A stretch of DNA of 64,000 nt from Pseudovibrio japonicus. GTDB lineage: Bacteria > Pseudomonadota > Alphaproteobacteria > Rhizobiales > Stappiaceae. Shown here piece after piece: positions 14,453-20,930 of this stretch (positions within the stretch are counted from its first letter, which is position 1; every line of letters begins with the position of its first letter). Where the stretch lies: contig NZ_BMXE01000003.1 of NCBI RefSeq assembly GCF_014651595.1, positions 124,001-188,000 of the forward strand. The letters run 5' to 3'. Under the pieces are notes generated by a model, which ran no database searches, had not been told where the DNA came from, and saw nothing but the letters and a program-made list of their open reading frames with translations. The position numbers were made by a program, and so were the translations under genes.

Positions 14453-14530
14453 TTGTCGTGGCAGGTCGGCAGTTCCCTAGGCGTCGCTGCCCCGGGAGGG
14501 GAGCTAAACCTGCCAGTCACTTCGACAGTA
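14453..14530. other. Structured element of nested inverted repeats (candidate RNA)
   Basis: Outer arms TGTCG and CGACA enclose GGCAGGT and ACCTGCC, which enclose GGCAG and CTGCC and a CCCCGGGAGGGG core. The GC-rich block sits in otherwise plain sequence, 75 bases ahead of the DUF2087 gene. It could be a small RNA or a leader element of that gene. It does not match the cobalamin, FMN, TPP, glycine or SRP RNA consensus as I know them. Confidence 0.4.
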
Positions 14531-16270: not shown

Positions 16271-16828
16271 CTATTCCTGTCTCTCAAGGATGACGGGATA
16301 ATTCGCTGGCTGATCGTAATTGCCATCGCACTCAGGTTTGGCGCGGTACTCAAGCAAGTAGGGGTAGCCTTGTGGGGTGAACCTGTGGACCTCATAGGTC
16401 CCGCAGTCTCCAAGGCCAGTACCCTTCATAAAGCTGGTCAAATCTCCGGTCTTGATGTCCCAGACACCGTTGAAGACGACCTCGGGATCATCGTTGGGTA
16501 CACTTGGGGGACGCTCAAAGGCCAGCAATGCTGCTTCGTCCGGGTCTCTGGAATCCAGGTGGACGTAGAGATGGGCATCGTTATATGGGGTCATGGAACA
16601 GGAAAATTCCAGCACCTGTACGAACTCATTGAACGTCAGGCGGTGATGGCCTCTCGTCTCGTAGTCTTCTCTCCAACTGCAGGGGTGAGCTGCATTTAGC
16701 ATGTCTATGTAGTGGTTCAGGATTGTCGGATCATTTTCTTTTACGGGTTGAACGGGCTCGGCTTGTGTCGGGCTGGTCAGAAGGGCCGCAAAGATAAAAG
16801 CAATGCTTGGATACACGTATCTGGGCAT
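16271..16828 (-). CDS. Secreted DUF1176-like protein, paralogue A
   Basis: A 185-residue protein with a signal peptide ([17 protein letters not shown], cleavage after about PTQA). GAGGAAGG stands upstream, and I trimmed 18 codons of the longer frame. The mature part has cysteines in [24 protein letters not shown] and KPECDGN, suggesting disulfides. The GDCG segment followed by [12 protein letters not shown] resembles DUF1176. It is about 40 percent identical by eye to the next gene, so the two are tandem duplicates. Function unknown; likely periplasmic. Confidence 0.65.
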
Positions 16829-16956
16829 GGTGGCCTTCCTCGTTGACTGGTCGTGTCCTGTCACAGAATGCCGCCTAGCCATTACGCTTGCCTAAAAACT
16901 CTTGGTTTAAATGTGTTTACCGGCAAAGGGAGGGCTTTAGCTGTTGGCTTGCCCGG

Positions 16957-17535
16957 TTACATCATCGGGTAGACCAACGGATACTCGGTGGGTTCGCGGA
17001 ATTTTCCGTCACAGGTGTGCTTGGCGCGATATTCCACCAGTTCCAGATTGCCTTGTGGCGTGAAGCGGTGGACCTCAAACGAACCGCAGTCTGACAATCC
17101 GCGATCTACCGTGAAGCTAGTCAGAGCGGCGCGATTATGATCCCAGAAGCTGTTGAAGAGGATGTATTTGCTGGTGATCGGCTGTCCCTTTGGCCGGCGC
17201 AGAGCAACGAGTTTTGCCGGTTGGCTGCGGTCTATGTATTTGCGAACGTACAGGTTTGCCAGATTGTGCAGGCCGACGGTGCAGGAGAACTCCAGGACCT
17301 GAATGCCATTGCCAAGGTCGTAGAGGTTATACCCGTTCCGTTTGTGTGCATCATACCATTTGCAGGGGTATATCTGGTTGAGCAGGTGTAGGTGGCGCTC
17401 CAGTTCCGCCTCATCGAAGCGGCGGGGATAAAGTATCGGCTCAAGCGGAGCCCCTGCCAAAGCGGGCAGGGGGATCATGAGAACGCATGCGCTGCGCAAC
17501 AGATGAGCAATTTTTCTTGTGATACTTTCAAACAT
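16957..17535 (-). CDS. Secreted DUF1176-like protein, paralogue B
   Basis: A 192-residue protein with a signal sequence (LLRSACVLMIPLPALAGA). It shares the order of motifs with its neighbour: [33 protein letters not shown], then LVEYRAKHTCDGKF, with all four cysteines kept. The N-terminus upstream of the ATG at 17535 has a weak AGGT ribosome binding site. It lies between hemF/paralogue A and trmL on the same strand, with 130-base gaps that suggest separate or loosely linked transcription. No function is known. Confidence 0.65.
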   Translation of the reverse strand: MFESITRKIAHLLRSACVLMIPLPALAGAPLEPILYPRRFDEAELERHLHLLNQIYPCKWYDAHKRNGYNLYDLGNGIQVLEFSCTVGLHNLANLYVRKYIDRSQPAKLVALRRPKGQPITSKYILFNSFWDHNRAALTSFTVDRGLSDCGSFEVHRFTPQGNLELVEYRAKHTCDGKFREPTEYPLVYPMM

Positions 17536-17603: not shown

Positions 17604-18059
17604 TCAAAAACAATCTGTTTGGCGCAGGGCCTCACCAAGCACCATTCCGGTGGAGACGGCCATGTTGAGTGAGCGCATACCATTCTTCATAGGAATCAGT
17701 AGTCTGGCGTCAGCGACCTGGTGGACATTTTCAGGAACGCCTGAGCTTTCGCGGCCCATCAGGATCAGGTCGTCCTTCTTGAAGGCAAACTGGGTGTACG
17801 GGCGCGATCCCTTGGTGGTCATCAGGATCAAGCGACGTTTTTCCGCCAACTGCCATTCACGAAAACTCTCCCAATCCATATGGCGTTGGAGCTTTGCCCG
17901 CTCGATGTAATCCATGCCGGCGCGCTTCAGTGCTCGGTCAGACAAGGGAAACCCGGCGGGTTCGATCAGGTGCAGGGTCACATCCATGCAGGCGGCCAAC
18001 CGCAACAGTGTCCCGGTGTTTTGCGGAATGTCGGGTTGGTACAGGGCAATATCTGGCAT
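17604..18059 (-). CDS. trmL: tRNA (cytidine(34)-2'-O)-methyltransferase
   Basis: A 151-residue minimal SPOUT (SpoU-class) methyltransferase. Family landmarks are the start LYQPDIPQNTGTLLRLAACM and the knot motifs LILMGRESSGVPENV and IPMKNGMRSLNMAVSTGMVL. TrmL methylates the wobble base ribose of tRNA-Leu isoacceptors. Alphaproteobacteria commonly keep trmL divergent from petABC, and that is roughly the case here, except that a membrane protein and an ABC exporter gene are inserted between them. Confidence 0.95.
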   Translation of the reverse strand: MPDIALYQPDIPQNTGTLLRLAACMDVTLHLIEPAGFPLSDRALKRAGMDYIERAKLQRHMDWESFREWQLAEKRRLILMTTKGSRPYTQFAFKKDDLILMGRESSGVPENVHQVADARLLIPMKNGMRSLNMAVSTGMVLGEALRQTDCF

Positions 18060-18330
18060 GGTGCGTGGTGCTCGCTTTCGGTCCTATCAGAATGGCTTAT
18101 GGAAGCATTACTCGGGCATCTAGCGGAACCCAGTGAAAATCTCCAGAAAAAACATAGTGTTTGTTGATAGGTGCGGGCGCCCATTGTGATTTTGCTGATA
18201 GGAATCAAGTGCTTTCATTGTAATTGGTGATATATGTTGCGAAAAAGATACAGTGCAATCTAAAGTGTTTTTCCCTAGTTTTAGGGGCTAGGCATGTTTC
18301 GGTCTTTATGAGTATAAGCATCTCGCACCG

Positions 18331-18395
18331 GCCGAGAGCCCTCATCTCATTTGACGAGACTCTCCGAGTTGCTGATCGCCCGATCAGCTATTTTT
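18331..18395 (+). promoter_or_regulatory. Stem-loop followed by terminator-like hairpin (attenuator or small-RNA end)
   Basis: GAGAG (18334-18338) pairs with CTCTC (18360-18364), enclosing CTC and GAG arms. It is followed by GCTGATC (18371-18377), loop GCCC, GATCAGC (18382-18388) and TATTTTT, a good intrinsic terminator shape. It lies about 27 bases before the short ORF at 18422. It could end a small RNA or attenuate the downstream genes. Confidence 0.6.
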
Positions 18396-18421
18396 AAAAC
18401 GTTGGAACCAGGGAGACATAC

Positions 18422-18523
18422 ATGAATACTGAATTTGTGCTCGTGAACGCAAATGTTCTCCCGGCGACTGGCAAATGCGCTATGCATTCTGCTTGGTACA
18501 CAGGCCGCCCATTTTCCGCTTAG
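18422..18523 (+). CDS. Putative 33-residue small protein or leader peptide
   Basis: The ATG at 18422 follows CCAGGGAGACATAC, a strong ribosome binding site, and the frame runs MNTEFVLVNANVLPATGK to a stop at 18521-18523. A stem CCGCTT/AAGCGG (18516-18530) spans the stop codon. It lies downstream of a terminator-like hairpin and upstream of a membrane protein and ABC exporter, which is the usual position of a leader peptide. No family is recognised, and it may simply be a small independent gene. It was too short for routine ORF calling. Confidence 0.45.
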   Translation: MNTEFVLVNANVLPATGKCAMHSAWYTGRPFSA

Positions 18524-18628
18524 AAAGCGGATTTCCAACACTTCCTAACTCGTATTTTCTTAATGCAGCCCTCCCTTACGGACGCTTCACGTCTGCGGTT
18601 GCATGCATATGTTGTCGGAGTATCTCCA

Positions 18629-19018
18629 ATGATTACGTCGTTTATCTGGGCGCAGATTGCGTCCCGTGATGGTTCTATGTCTCAAATTCCAGTCGATGGC
18701 GGTCGCTATGTGCGCTCTGCGGGATTGGGAAAAACCACACTTTCACAGGGCCTTGTGCATGCCTTCTGGTTCTTGATGATTAGTGCTGGAGTTGCATTTT
18801 TTGCAATTATTCCAACGCTTTACGCAGAGCTGGGTCTGGTTGAATTTGTACGGTCCAACGGAGCCTATGAGGCTGGCACGCTGTTCAAAGGGCGTGTCAT
18901 CGATACCATAGTTGGCGCCTTTGCGGTTGGTGTCGGCATTGCCAGTTTGATCTGGTCTTTTGCCGGCGCGCCTAAAGATAGCCGCGATCCATATGAACGA
19001 GATGAGCGGCTGCAGTAA
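18629..19018 (+). CDS. Small two-helix membrane protein, function unknown
   Basis: A 129-residue protein beginning MITSFIWAQIASRDG, with CGGAG eight bases ahead of the start; ATG 18677 (MSQIPVDGG) is an alternative. Two hydrophobic stretches are visible, about residues 45-65 (AFWFLMISAGVAFFAIIPTL) and 95-113 (IVGAFAVGVGIASLIWSF), and the C-terminus is charged and acidic. It precedes the ABC exporter by 73 bases on the same strand and may be an accessory subunit. I recognise no family. Confidence 0.6.
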   Translation: MITSFIWAQIASRDGSMSQIPVDGGRYVRSAGLGKTTLSQGLVHAFWFLMISAGVAFFAIIPTLYAELGLVEFVRSNGAYEAGTLFKGRVIDTIVGAFAVGVGIASLIWSFAGAPKDSRDPYERDERLQ

Positions 19019-19091
19019 GCAGCCGTCATCCTCTCACCATGTTGACGTGGTAATGCGCTTTATAGTCCAAGTATATTAATTGGGATTTATC

Positions 19092-20930
19092 ATGTTCTCT
19101 TATTTTGAGAAGCTTATTGACCCATTCAAAGTGGAGGATATAAAGACTCCTCCAAGTACGTTTTGGGGTTTTATCTGGTTCTATACTAAGCCAGTGTCAG
19201 TGTTGCTTGCTATTATTGCATTCTTTGCTGCTGGAATTGCTATTCTGGAAGTCATTGTATTCACGTTTATGGGTGATCTGGTCAATTGGCTGGGCAGCGA
19301 AAGTCCTGAGACCTTCTTTGCGGACAACTGGAGCCATCTGATTTGGATGGGCGTGGTGCTCTTAATCATATCGCCGCTTGTGTCAGGTTTATGGGAGCTG
19401 CTCTTTCATCAGGGGCTGGTTGGCAACTATCCTATGGTGCTCCGCTGGAAGGGGCATCGGCAATTACTTCGGCAAAGCTTGAGCTTCTTCCATAATGATT
19501 TCGCGGGTCGCATCGCCAACAAGCTGATGCAGACTTCTCTCGCTGTCAGAGAGGTGATTACGCGCATTGTCGATATTTTTGTCTATGTGATTGTTTACTT
19601 CCTTGCCGCGATTGCTGTGCTTGCAAACGCTGACTGGCGACTTGCTCTGCCAATGGTGGGGTGGTTGGTAGCCTATTTCGTTGTCATGTACGTCTTCGTG
19701 CCAAAACTGAAGAGAATATCTAAGAAACAGGCAGATGCCCGATCTGTGATGACCGGTCATGTGGTTGATGCGTATACGAATATCTCGACGGTGAAGCTGT
19801 TCTCGCATGCCGCGCGCGAAGAAGATTATGCCAAGAATTCCATGAGCAAGTTCATGGATACTGTGCATTTGCAGATGCGGAATGTGACGAAGCTGAATAT
19901 CTGCCTGACAATGATCAACAACCTGTTGCTTCTGGCGCTAGGTGGTATTTCCATCTGGCTGTGGAAGGGTGCGTTAGTGACCACGGGTGACATTGCGATT
20001 GCGATTGCCCTGGCCCTGCGTTTGCAAGGCATGTCCCAATGGATCCTTTGGGAAGTGGCAGGTCTGTTTGAAAACATCGGTACAGTGCAGGATGGCTTGG
20101 GCATGTTGTCCCGGCATACTGAAGTGCGCGATCAGGAGAATGCCAAGGAACTTGTCGTTTCTGATGCGGAAATTCGCTTCGAAGATGTGAAGTTCCACTA
20201 TGGCAAAGGCAGTGGCGTTCTGGAGAACCTGTCGCTTAACATCAAGCCGGGTGAGAAGATCGGCATTGTTGGGCGCTCCGGTGCTGGTAAGTCGACGCTG
20301 ATGAACCTGCTGCTGCGCTTCCATGATCTGGAAGGCGGGCGTATTGCCATTGATGGTCAGGACATCCGCAGTGTGACGCAGGAAAGTCTGCGCAAGCATG
20401 TGGGTGTTGTCTCTCAGGATACCTCGCTGCTGCACCGGACAATTCTGGAGAACATCACTTACGGCAAAGATGGTGCGAGTCTGGAAGAGGCGAGGGAAGC
20501 GGCACGGCGTGCCCATGCTCTGGAGTTTATTGAAGGCTTGAAAGACCCTGAAGGGCGCACTGGCTTTGATACTCTGGTGGGTGAGCGCGGTGTGAAGCTT
20601 TCCGGTGGTCAGCGTCAGCGTGTTGCCATTGCACGGGTGTTGTTGAAGGACGCTCCTATCCTTGTTCTGGACGAAGCAACGTCTGCTTTGGACTCCGAAG
20701 TGGAGGCGGCTATTCAGGAGAGCCTGTTCGAATTGATGGAGGGTAAGACGGTGATTGCGATTGCTCACAGACTTTCCACAATTGCGGCAATGGACCGCCT
20801 AATTGTCATGGATCAAGGCAAAATCGTAGAAATGGGTACTCACGAAGAGCTTTTGAAATCTGACGGTATCTACGAGAATCTCTGGAACCATCAATCCGGC
20901 GGATTCCTTGCGCAGGTTGCCGCTGAATAA
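19092..20930 (+). CDS. ABC exporter, fused permease and ATP-binding domain
   Basis: A 612-residue half-transporter starting MFSYFEKLIDPF; the upstream TTG at 19080 is less likely. Residues about 25-315 hold the type-1 exporter membrane domain, six helices. The nucleotide-binding domain shows Walker A GRSGAGKST, the ABC signature LSGGQRQRVAIARVLL, Walker B APILVLDEATSALD and the H-loop IAHRLSTI. It should work as a homodimer or heterodimer; the substrate is not evident. It sits between a small membrane protein gene and petABC. Confidence 0.93.
   Translation: MFSYFEKLIDPFKVEDIKTPPSTFWGFIWFYTKPVSVLLAIIAFFAAGIAILEVIVFTFMGDLVNWLGSESPETFFADNWSHLIWMGVVLLIISPLVSGLWELLFHQGLVGNYPMVLRWKGHRQLLRQSLSFFHNDFAGRIANKLMQTSLAVREVITRIVDIFVYVIVYFLAAIAVLANADWRLALPMVGWLVAYFVVMYVFVPKLKRISKKQADARSVMTGHVVDAYTNISTVKLFSHAAREEDYAKNSMSKFMDTVHLQMRNVTKLNICLTMINNLLLLALGGISIWLWKGALVTTGDIAIAIALALRLQGMSQWILWEVAGLFENIGTVQDGLGMLSRHTEVRDQENAKELVVSDAEIRFEDVKFHYGKGSGVLENLSLNIKPGEKIGIVGRSGAGKSTLMNLLLRFHDLEGGRIAIDGQDIRSVTQESLRKHVGVVSQDTSLLHRTILENITYGKDGASLEEAREAARRAHALEFIEGLKDPEGRTGFDTLVGERGVKLSGGQRQRVAIARVLLKDAPILVLDEATSALDSEVEAAIQESLFELMEGKTVIAIAHRLSTIAAMDRLIVMDQGKIVEMGTHEELLKSDGIYENLWNHQSGGFLAQVAAE

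Follow-up and report, generated by a model that had tools for sequence, protein, structure and literature searches.

A putative translation-sensing leader ORF ahead of a membrane-protein and ABC-exporter operon in Pseudovibrio japonicus and related alphaproteobacteria

Classical leader-peptide attenuators of amino-acid operons place a short leader ORF upstream of structured RNA. The described system closest to the leader analysed here is the duf1127_1 uORF (sORF26) of S. meliloti, which the relevant sections of its source present as a translation-sensing attenuator with a tested and probably Rho-dependent mechanism (PMC12218461). In this 279-nt leader, a predicted pairing joins the ribosome-binding site (RBS) to the C-rich codons 3–10 at the start of the uORF; a segment with an excess of C over G (38% C, 18% G) comes right after the uORF stop, and 3′ ends cluster after it; a candidate intrinsic terminator proved irrelevant; and attenuation is relieved by tetracycline, with a discontinuous rut site put forward by the authors as speculation (PMC12218461). 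Two other uORFs, as far as excerpts of their source papers go, offer points of comparison: toiL-topAI of E. coli, whose uORF is a proposed sensor of several classes of translation inhibitor (PMC12121999), and CruR (bp2923) of Bordetella, a copper-responsive uORF that heads a transporter operon and is followed by Rho-dependent termination (PMC9426467).

Here we analyse a leader in Pseudovibrio japonicus that lies within a stretch of 64,000 nt (the window, whose coordinates are used throughout). Its parts match those of duf1127_1, and by analogy we infer its function: a translation-sensing uORF attenuator ahead of a membrane-protein/ABC-exporter operon, in which it would be translation of the uORF, and not its peptide, that matters. 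We give this reading slightly better than an even chance; the mechanism, the signal and the direction of the switch are taken from the analogy. Full-text searches of the open-licence literature gave no title or abstract that deals with this leader at the exporter operon, which, given that scope, is weak evidence, and as far as 12 of 13 passages of PMC11109978 tell, the leader is not among the eight uORF candidates of that paper.

Layout of the leader and its gene neighbourhood

Every element named in a sequence-only reading of this DNA, namely SL1, SL2 with its TATTTTT tail, the Shine–Dalgarno (SD) sequence, the ORF and the stem at its stop codon, was found in place (Table 1). Its remark that no known family matched is borne out by Rfam, which finds nothing in the leader when the gathering threshold is applied and nothing in 14 relative loci at E ≤ 1; elsewhere in the window, Rfam RF02940 (COG3860 RNA) matches 14463–14515 (+) with 64.4 bits. 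The promoter-like pair ahead of SL1, a candidate promoter, is absent from the list of a sigma-70 scan.

Table 1. Leader features and flanking genes, in window coordinates
Feature	Position	Strand	Basis or remark
Divergent trmL-like SpoU methylase gene	17604..18059	-	NCBIfam TrmL model match below cut-off
TGT-N12-ACA imperfect palindrome (TGTTGC GAAAAA GATACA), candidate transcription-factor site	18235..18252	+	Genus alignment
Promoter-like CTAGGCA (18288–18294) and TATAAG (18313–18318)	18288..18318	+	Similar letters in most genus members
SL1 stem-loop, GAGAG/CTCTC	18334..18364	+	
SL2 hairpin, GCTGATC-GCCC-GATCAGC (18371–18388), then TATTTTT (18389–18395)	18371..18395	+	
Strong SD of the leader ORF, GGGAGA	18411..18416	+	
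33-codon leader ORF (uORF), ATG at 18422 to TAG at 18521–18523	18422..18523	+	
Anti-SD ATGTTCTCCC, ORF codons 11–14; possible partner GGGAGACAT (18411–18419)	18453..18462	+	Folds
Stem flanking the stop codon, CCGCTT (18516–18521)/AAGCGG (18525–18530)	18516..18530	+	
C-rich, G-poor tract 3′ of the ORF stop, possibly belonging to a Rho-loading site	18532..18571	+	
3′ hairpin, ATGCAGCC/GGTTGCAT around GACG/CGTC	18563..18604	+	
Small hairpin GGAG-TAT-CTCC holding the membrane-gene SD	18617..18627	+	Letters kept in close species
Gene for a 129-codon membrane protein; two stretches look hydrophobic by eye	18629..19018	+	
ABC exporter, 612 aa, ABC_membrane and ABC_tran	19092..20930	+	

The order trmL, leader, membrane gene, exporter is kept in all 16 genus genomes, each of which has a short ORF with a strong SD at the leader position. 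Next after the exporter in the window comes petA (Rieske), and petA and petB lie 3′ of the exporter in 29 of the 30 loci examined, the sole exception being a shorter locus (L071) in which they were not seen. The 129-codon membrane protein has no Pfam or NCBIfam match; its profile finds matches in 53 of 121 relatives, all of the same family as the window, and by coordinates the gene lies directly upstream of the exporter in relatives. Among the Rhizobium-type loci (L210–L289, mostly of Rhizobium, Sinorhizobium or Agrobacterium type and the top 80 out of at least 586 relatives of a Rhizobium query), trmL lies divergently upstream of the exporter in 79, a second same-strand ABC gene follows the exporter in 52, which suggests a heterodimer, and petA was found within the 1.5-kb flank in none.

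Some irregular loci deserve mention. At L051 (G003:C7:60371-62125), the exporter gene looks broken near its start, aligning in two pieces with one TAG. At L045, L046 and L047 (G002, G004 and G015), the frame of the membrane gene stays open back into the region of the short ORF, for up to 194 codons, which is probably chance, an upstream start being possible. On the reverse strand of the window, the adjacent genes at 16271–16882 and 16957–17535 resemble each other on visual inspection, and the latter matches DUF1176.

Conservation of the leader ORF and its frame

Comparison among relatives shows the 33-codon ORF to be more than a chance reading frame, and it is conservation that sets the leader above chance, the single-sequence statistics being mixed. 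Non-conservation of the ORF between related genomes, which had been named as an outcome that would count against it, is not what we find: start, SD, frame and, mostly, stop are kept.

First, 66 of 68 family loci carry a short ORF (sORF) that starts with ATG 120–420 nt before the next gene, runs for 6–60 codons and has an SD whose duplex energy is −7 kcal/mol or lower; in dinucleotide-shuffled leaders the count averages 2.6 and never exceeds 6. With 13 loci added, it is present in 79 of 81 exporter loci analysed in the window's family, with ATG, 18–42 codons and a strong SD, so that a short uORF with an SD in the 5′ leader is shared with duf1127_1, as the passages of PMC12218461 describe the latter. 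Of the 87 family genomes analysed, 82 have the exporter at the cut-off applied, and the family sORFs sit 180–318 nt ahead of the next gene, the distance at L161 resting on a mis-set membrane-gene start. The two family loci in which the sORF is missing at the searched place are L121 and L061; the latter carries two tandem copies of the membrane gene, which accounts for the miss, the leader ORF lying 5′ of the first. Further out, the picture is uneven. Rhizobium-type relatives have the sORF in 80 of 80 loci (the best 80 of at least 586), 184–317 nt before the exporter itself, and a wider, even sample of the Rhizobium-type family (f24) has it in 14 of 30 (the best 30 of 58 places), f13 in 1 of 3, and single loci across the order in 8 of 21, several of them doubtful. 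This wider sampling weakens universality: nearly every locus of the window's family has the leader ORF, whereas its occurrence beyond the family is patchy. The order-level scan missed many membrane-gene starts, and the family counts are taken from a later scan; L151, a 146-base contig end, was left out of the order-level scan. G129, whose contig starts at the gene, contributed no leader. At the paralogous upstream exporter (7 loci, L170–L176), there is no ATG sORF at an equal SD threshold within 900 nt. A DNA match in G025 and weak peptide matches outside the locus look like chance.

Second, the SD is strong. The duplex energy with the 16S tail is −8.2 kcal/mol for the window ORF, and the family median is −10.8 kcal/mol for the sORF, compared with −6.6 for the membrane gene.

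Third, insertions and deletions are rare within the sORF and respect its frame. In ten groups of related leaders that we chose (100 of 159 leaders, L161 belonging to none), we counted 9 indel events in 766 sORF columns compared with 132 in 2175 columns outside, a rate at which 46 would be expected inside. Multiples of three make up 6 of the 9 events inside and 22 of the 132 outside (Fisher p 0.002); RNA structure may suppress indels as well, but it would give no preference for multiples of three. The start lies in a common column in 100 of 100 rows and the stop in 92 of 100; in the 10 close species, the ORF length is identical and its alignment holds no indel.

The amino acids are a different matter: on these comparisons, the frame is protected and the residues are without clear protection. 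Five groups outside the Rhizobium-type set give pN/pS values of 0.63 (the window's clade), 0.75, 0.78, 0.88 and 1.54, close to the 0.72–1.35 obtained when the same DNA is read out of frame, and 66 sORF peptides fall into 25 clusters, several of them within the genus. The 33-residue peptide has no Pfam or NCBIfam match, and no conserved run of regulatory codons is seen among the 66 peptides, which are without clear purifying selection. The suggestion of a small protein gene is therefore disfavoured, the peptide not being conserved. That the 33-residue peptide itself acts would suit the strong SD, the conserved frame and the better conservation of the first half of the ORF in the close clade (pN/pS 0.41 at codons 2–15), but those conserved letters fall in the anti-SD arm, and with the number of peptide clusters, the out-of-frame pN/pS values and the loss of an initially universal cysteine, we consider it very improbable. 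The cysteine was itself tried as a sensor and rejected: present in 66 of the first 66 peptides, it was found in 77 of 79 in the larger set, compared with 49 and 69 of 79 in the other frames, and in the genus termed g2 the usual Cys16 codon falls in a predicted GCAACC/GGTTGC helix.

An R-x-R stalling motif is known from macrolide leader peptides. It finds no support in the Rhizobium-type peptides, in which the Arg codon 8 sits in the anti-SD: in the 18-codon group, 28 of 40 sequences have Arg at codon 8, encoded by CGC in 28 of those 28, and codons 8–10 are C-rich and complementary to the SD, so that RNA pairing explains the codon better than the motif does. The CGC bias is, as far as these alignments tell, a nucleotide-level constraint. 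The comparison with CruR, in the excerpts of PMC9426467, diverges at the same point: CruR belongs to a conserved protein family (DUF2946) that acts through peptide motifs, whereas the peptide here is unconserved, lacks the CXXC motif and, in the window, holds a single Cys.

Predicted structure of the leader RNA

Compared with its shuffles, the leader (18325–18642) gives the better fold (z −2.98, none of 100 shuffles equalling it); the first 100 nt taken alone are unremarkable (z −1.36, equalled by 18 of 200 shuffles).

The sequence-only reading had likened the order of elements to an attenuator with a leader peptide. A leader-ORF attenuator before the exporter is still the best reading, but the classical order does not hold: the hairpin with the U-tract, SL2, lies 5′ of the ORF and none is listed downstream, so SL2 cannot be a leader-peptide-controlled terminator of the ordinary sort. 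Unlike in classical attenuators, the ORF holds no single-amino-acid run, and a scan of the window finds no terminator-like site between ORF and membrane gene (18524–18628). The latter absence accords with a duf1127_1-type attenuator, and both leaders have a terminator-like hairpin, unused in duf1127_1 according to the sections of PMC12218461 on it. The SL2 stem has 7 pairs (−9.4 kcal/mol), and its tail contains at least 5 T in 8 in 9 of the 10 close species but, among the distant genus members, in only 1 of the 5 where SL2 could be placed (L056 being the sixth). In g2, the SD comes almost directly after a hairpin at the SL2 place (helix 1), which shows two-sided changes in 3 of its 5 pairs. 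On this evidence, SL2 is probably not the switch. A short RNA ending at SL2 (about 18325–18395), with read-through or a second promoter serving a constitutive operon, would account for the 7-pair stem and T-rich tail in the window and its close species; we give it hardly any credence, since that tail is missing in g2 and nearly so in the distant genus members, and terminator-like patterns are as frequent as in shuffles (5 sites in the 4-kb region compared with a mean of 4.5, that is, chance).

Folds of the window's clade allow GGGAGACAT, which contains the SD, to pair with ATGTTCTCCC inside the ORF, in the same stretch of codons 2–15 that is better conserved, and for 10 of the 13 genus loci shown the best anti-SD arm starts with codon 11. 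Distant genus members have other letters in SD and anti-SD that can still pair; in the 10 close species, these pairs (helix 7) vary on one side at most. In g2, GCCGCCC codons are the predicted partner of the SD, GCAACC/GGTTGC closes this pairing, and the start codon is paired too. Partition-function probabilities of SD–ORF pairing have group means of 0.79–0.89 compared with 0.64–0.75 when the ORF is shuffled (0.83 compared with 0.77 in the window), a modest excess, so composition accounts for much of the SD pairing. A pairing between RBS and C-rich codons is predicted for duf1127_1 and also for this leader, where its position is conserved and its probability only modestly above that of shuffled ORFs; the anti-SD starts with codon 11 in the window and lies near codons 11–13 in g2, compared with codons 3–10 in the passages of PMC12218461.

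Covariation support for the structure is weak in the window's close clade. SL1 (helix 3) has 7 of its 10 pairs invariant in the 10 close species and none changed on both sides; the stop-codon stem (helix 10) has 94% of cells paired and one pair changed on both sides; and the two helices of the 3′ hairpin (11 and 12) have 100% and 92% of cells paired with no two-sided change. Altogether, 4 pairs changed on both sides compared with 1.1 in shuffles, and the covariation score is not above shuffles. An alignment for compensatory changes in two named stems had been proposed: both stems are kept in close species, and they are mostly invariant, so covariation does not test them there.

Stronger signals come from g2, aligned with 23 of its 24 loci (alignment A5, L162 omitted); alignment A6 took in 21 of 38 others and A7 22 of 24 printed loci, and the membrane-gene start of L117 was moved by 33 nt for the g2 and indel alignments. 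In g2, 9 pairs changed on both sides compared with 3.6 in shuffles, and 97.5% of cells are paired compared with 30–42% when slid. The two-sided changes are confined to helices 1, 6 and 8, the SD helix having one-sided changes only. Covariation in helices 6 and 8 of the 3′ domain, together with invariant junction letters, would suit a riboswitch or other ligand-sensing RNA with the uORF as accessory, but neither Rfam nor a 3′-domain model (R1, 70 sources) speaks for it: R1 matches none of the 12 genus and none of the 14 Rhizobium-type loci searched, so the 3′ domain is not the shared core, and we rejected a riboswitch core there and regard a ligand sensor as quite improbable. The matches of R1 are L161, L163, L162, L157 and L060, which lie near the sequences it was trained on, followed by L065, L102, L061, L105 and L127 and, more weakly (E > 0.1), by L113 and L098; at L061 the match also lies before the first copy of the membrane gene.

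That covarying downstream structure, with the protected frame, also suggests more than a strong SD and short ORF that only load ribosomes and, without acting as a switch, shield the leader RNA against RNase E or Rho. Such loading would fit the unconserved peptide and the very strong SD; we nevertheless rate it a distant outsider.

A further alternative is occlusion of the next RBS as in toiL, in which leader structure would hide the start of the membrane gene, ribosomes stalled on the uORF would re-fold it and Rho would be secondary, acting inside the gene. The excerpts of PMC12121999 propose that toiL acts so, and the likeness is a uORF with leader structure ahead of a start that structure may occlude, here putatively through the small hairpin around the next SD (18617–18627), whose stem in g2 (UCGGA/UCCGA) is identical in 23 of 23 loci with a variable loop. 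Against it stand the size of this hairpin (only 4–5 pairs), the distance of about 105 nt from the uORF stop to the membrane-gene start in the window, and genus members L054 and L055, which show no SD hairpin. Gene, organism and sequence differ from toiL-topAI, and any alternative pairing between uORF and SD hairpin would be hypothetical in this leader. We consider this mode of action unlikely.

Between the uORF stop and that hairpin lies a tract of C over G. Its composition in the window is 0.325 C and 0.075 G; across 79 family loci, the means are 0.333 and 0.178 (33% and 18%, compared with 38% and 18% after the stop of duf1127_1 in the sections of PMC12218461), and across 80 Rhizobium-type loci (the top 80 out of at least 586 relatives) 0.315 and 0.187. 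It is the leader's most C-over-G 40-nt segment in only 35 of the 79 family and 32 of the 80 Rhizobium-type loci, and it is shorter than the usual rut site.

Proposed control of the exporter and a possible counterpart in S. meliloti

By analogy with duf1127_1, the translation-sensing attenuator that we favour would work as follows. In healthy cells, the uORF would be translated and the C-rich RNA periodically exposed, and Rho, occlusion of the next start site or both would keep the exporter low. When ribosomes are stalled or scarce, the start region of the uORF would be covered or re-folded and transcription or translation would proceed; relief upon stalling would make the exporter inducible by translation stress, for example by ribosome-targeting antibiotics. 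In both this leader, as known from sequence comparison, and duf1127_1, as portrayed in the passages of PMC12218461, it is RNA and not peptide sequence that would matter. The leaders differ in their targets, an ABC exporter operon here and a DUF1127 gene there, and in the extra structured 3′ domain and next-gene SD hairpin of the former. With CruR, going by the excerpts of PMC9426467, the proposal shares a uORF at the head of a transporter operon and Rho-dependent termination.

A broader proposal, which we hold tentatively and regard as rather unlikely, is that fast-evolving, 'peptide-free' regulatory uORFs, in which SD, frame and length are kept, switch on the trmL-adjacent ABC exporter under any translation stress across the order, in marine and plant-associated alphaproteobacteria. 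If the attenuator reading favoured here is right, an exporter operon of unknown substrate would join the translation-stress response in many alphaproteobacteria, and its uORF, conserved without its peptide, would be of a kind easily missed by screens for protein conservation.

The idea would be testable in S. meliloti. The passages of PMC12218461 place sORF3 and sORF55 ahead of SM2011_RS23660, which is the first large gene in an operon for ABC-type multidrug transport and one of the top 30 tetracycline-upregulated genes. At the orthologous locus of S. meliloti 4H41 the order is trmL, an 18-codon sORF and two consecutive ABC genes, which fits a putative identity with SM2011_RS23660 and makes MTVLMLTRLPRVTRPFLA a candidate counterpart of sORF3/sORF55; at locus L281, the 18-codon sORF lies 214 nt before the exporter. 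Passages of the ribosome-profiling paper PMC10117765 do not place sORF3.

Control by a transcription factor in addition is suggested by the palindrome upstream. TGT-N12-ACA stands 40–260 nt before the sORF at 66 of 79 loci in the family (mean in shuffles 3.1, maximum 8) and at 49 of 80 in the Rhizobium-type set (the top 80 out of at least 586 relatives; mean in shuffles 3.1, maximum 9). A genome-wide palindrome regulon did not emerge, the strict pattern occurring 0–4 times per genome per strand compared with 0–5 for a control in 41 genomes; by coordinates, strict palindromes lie at the exporter locus itself in G016, G018 and G023.
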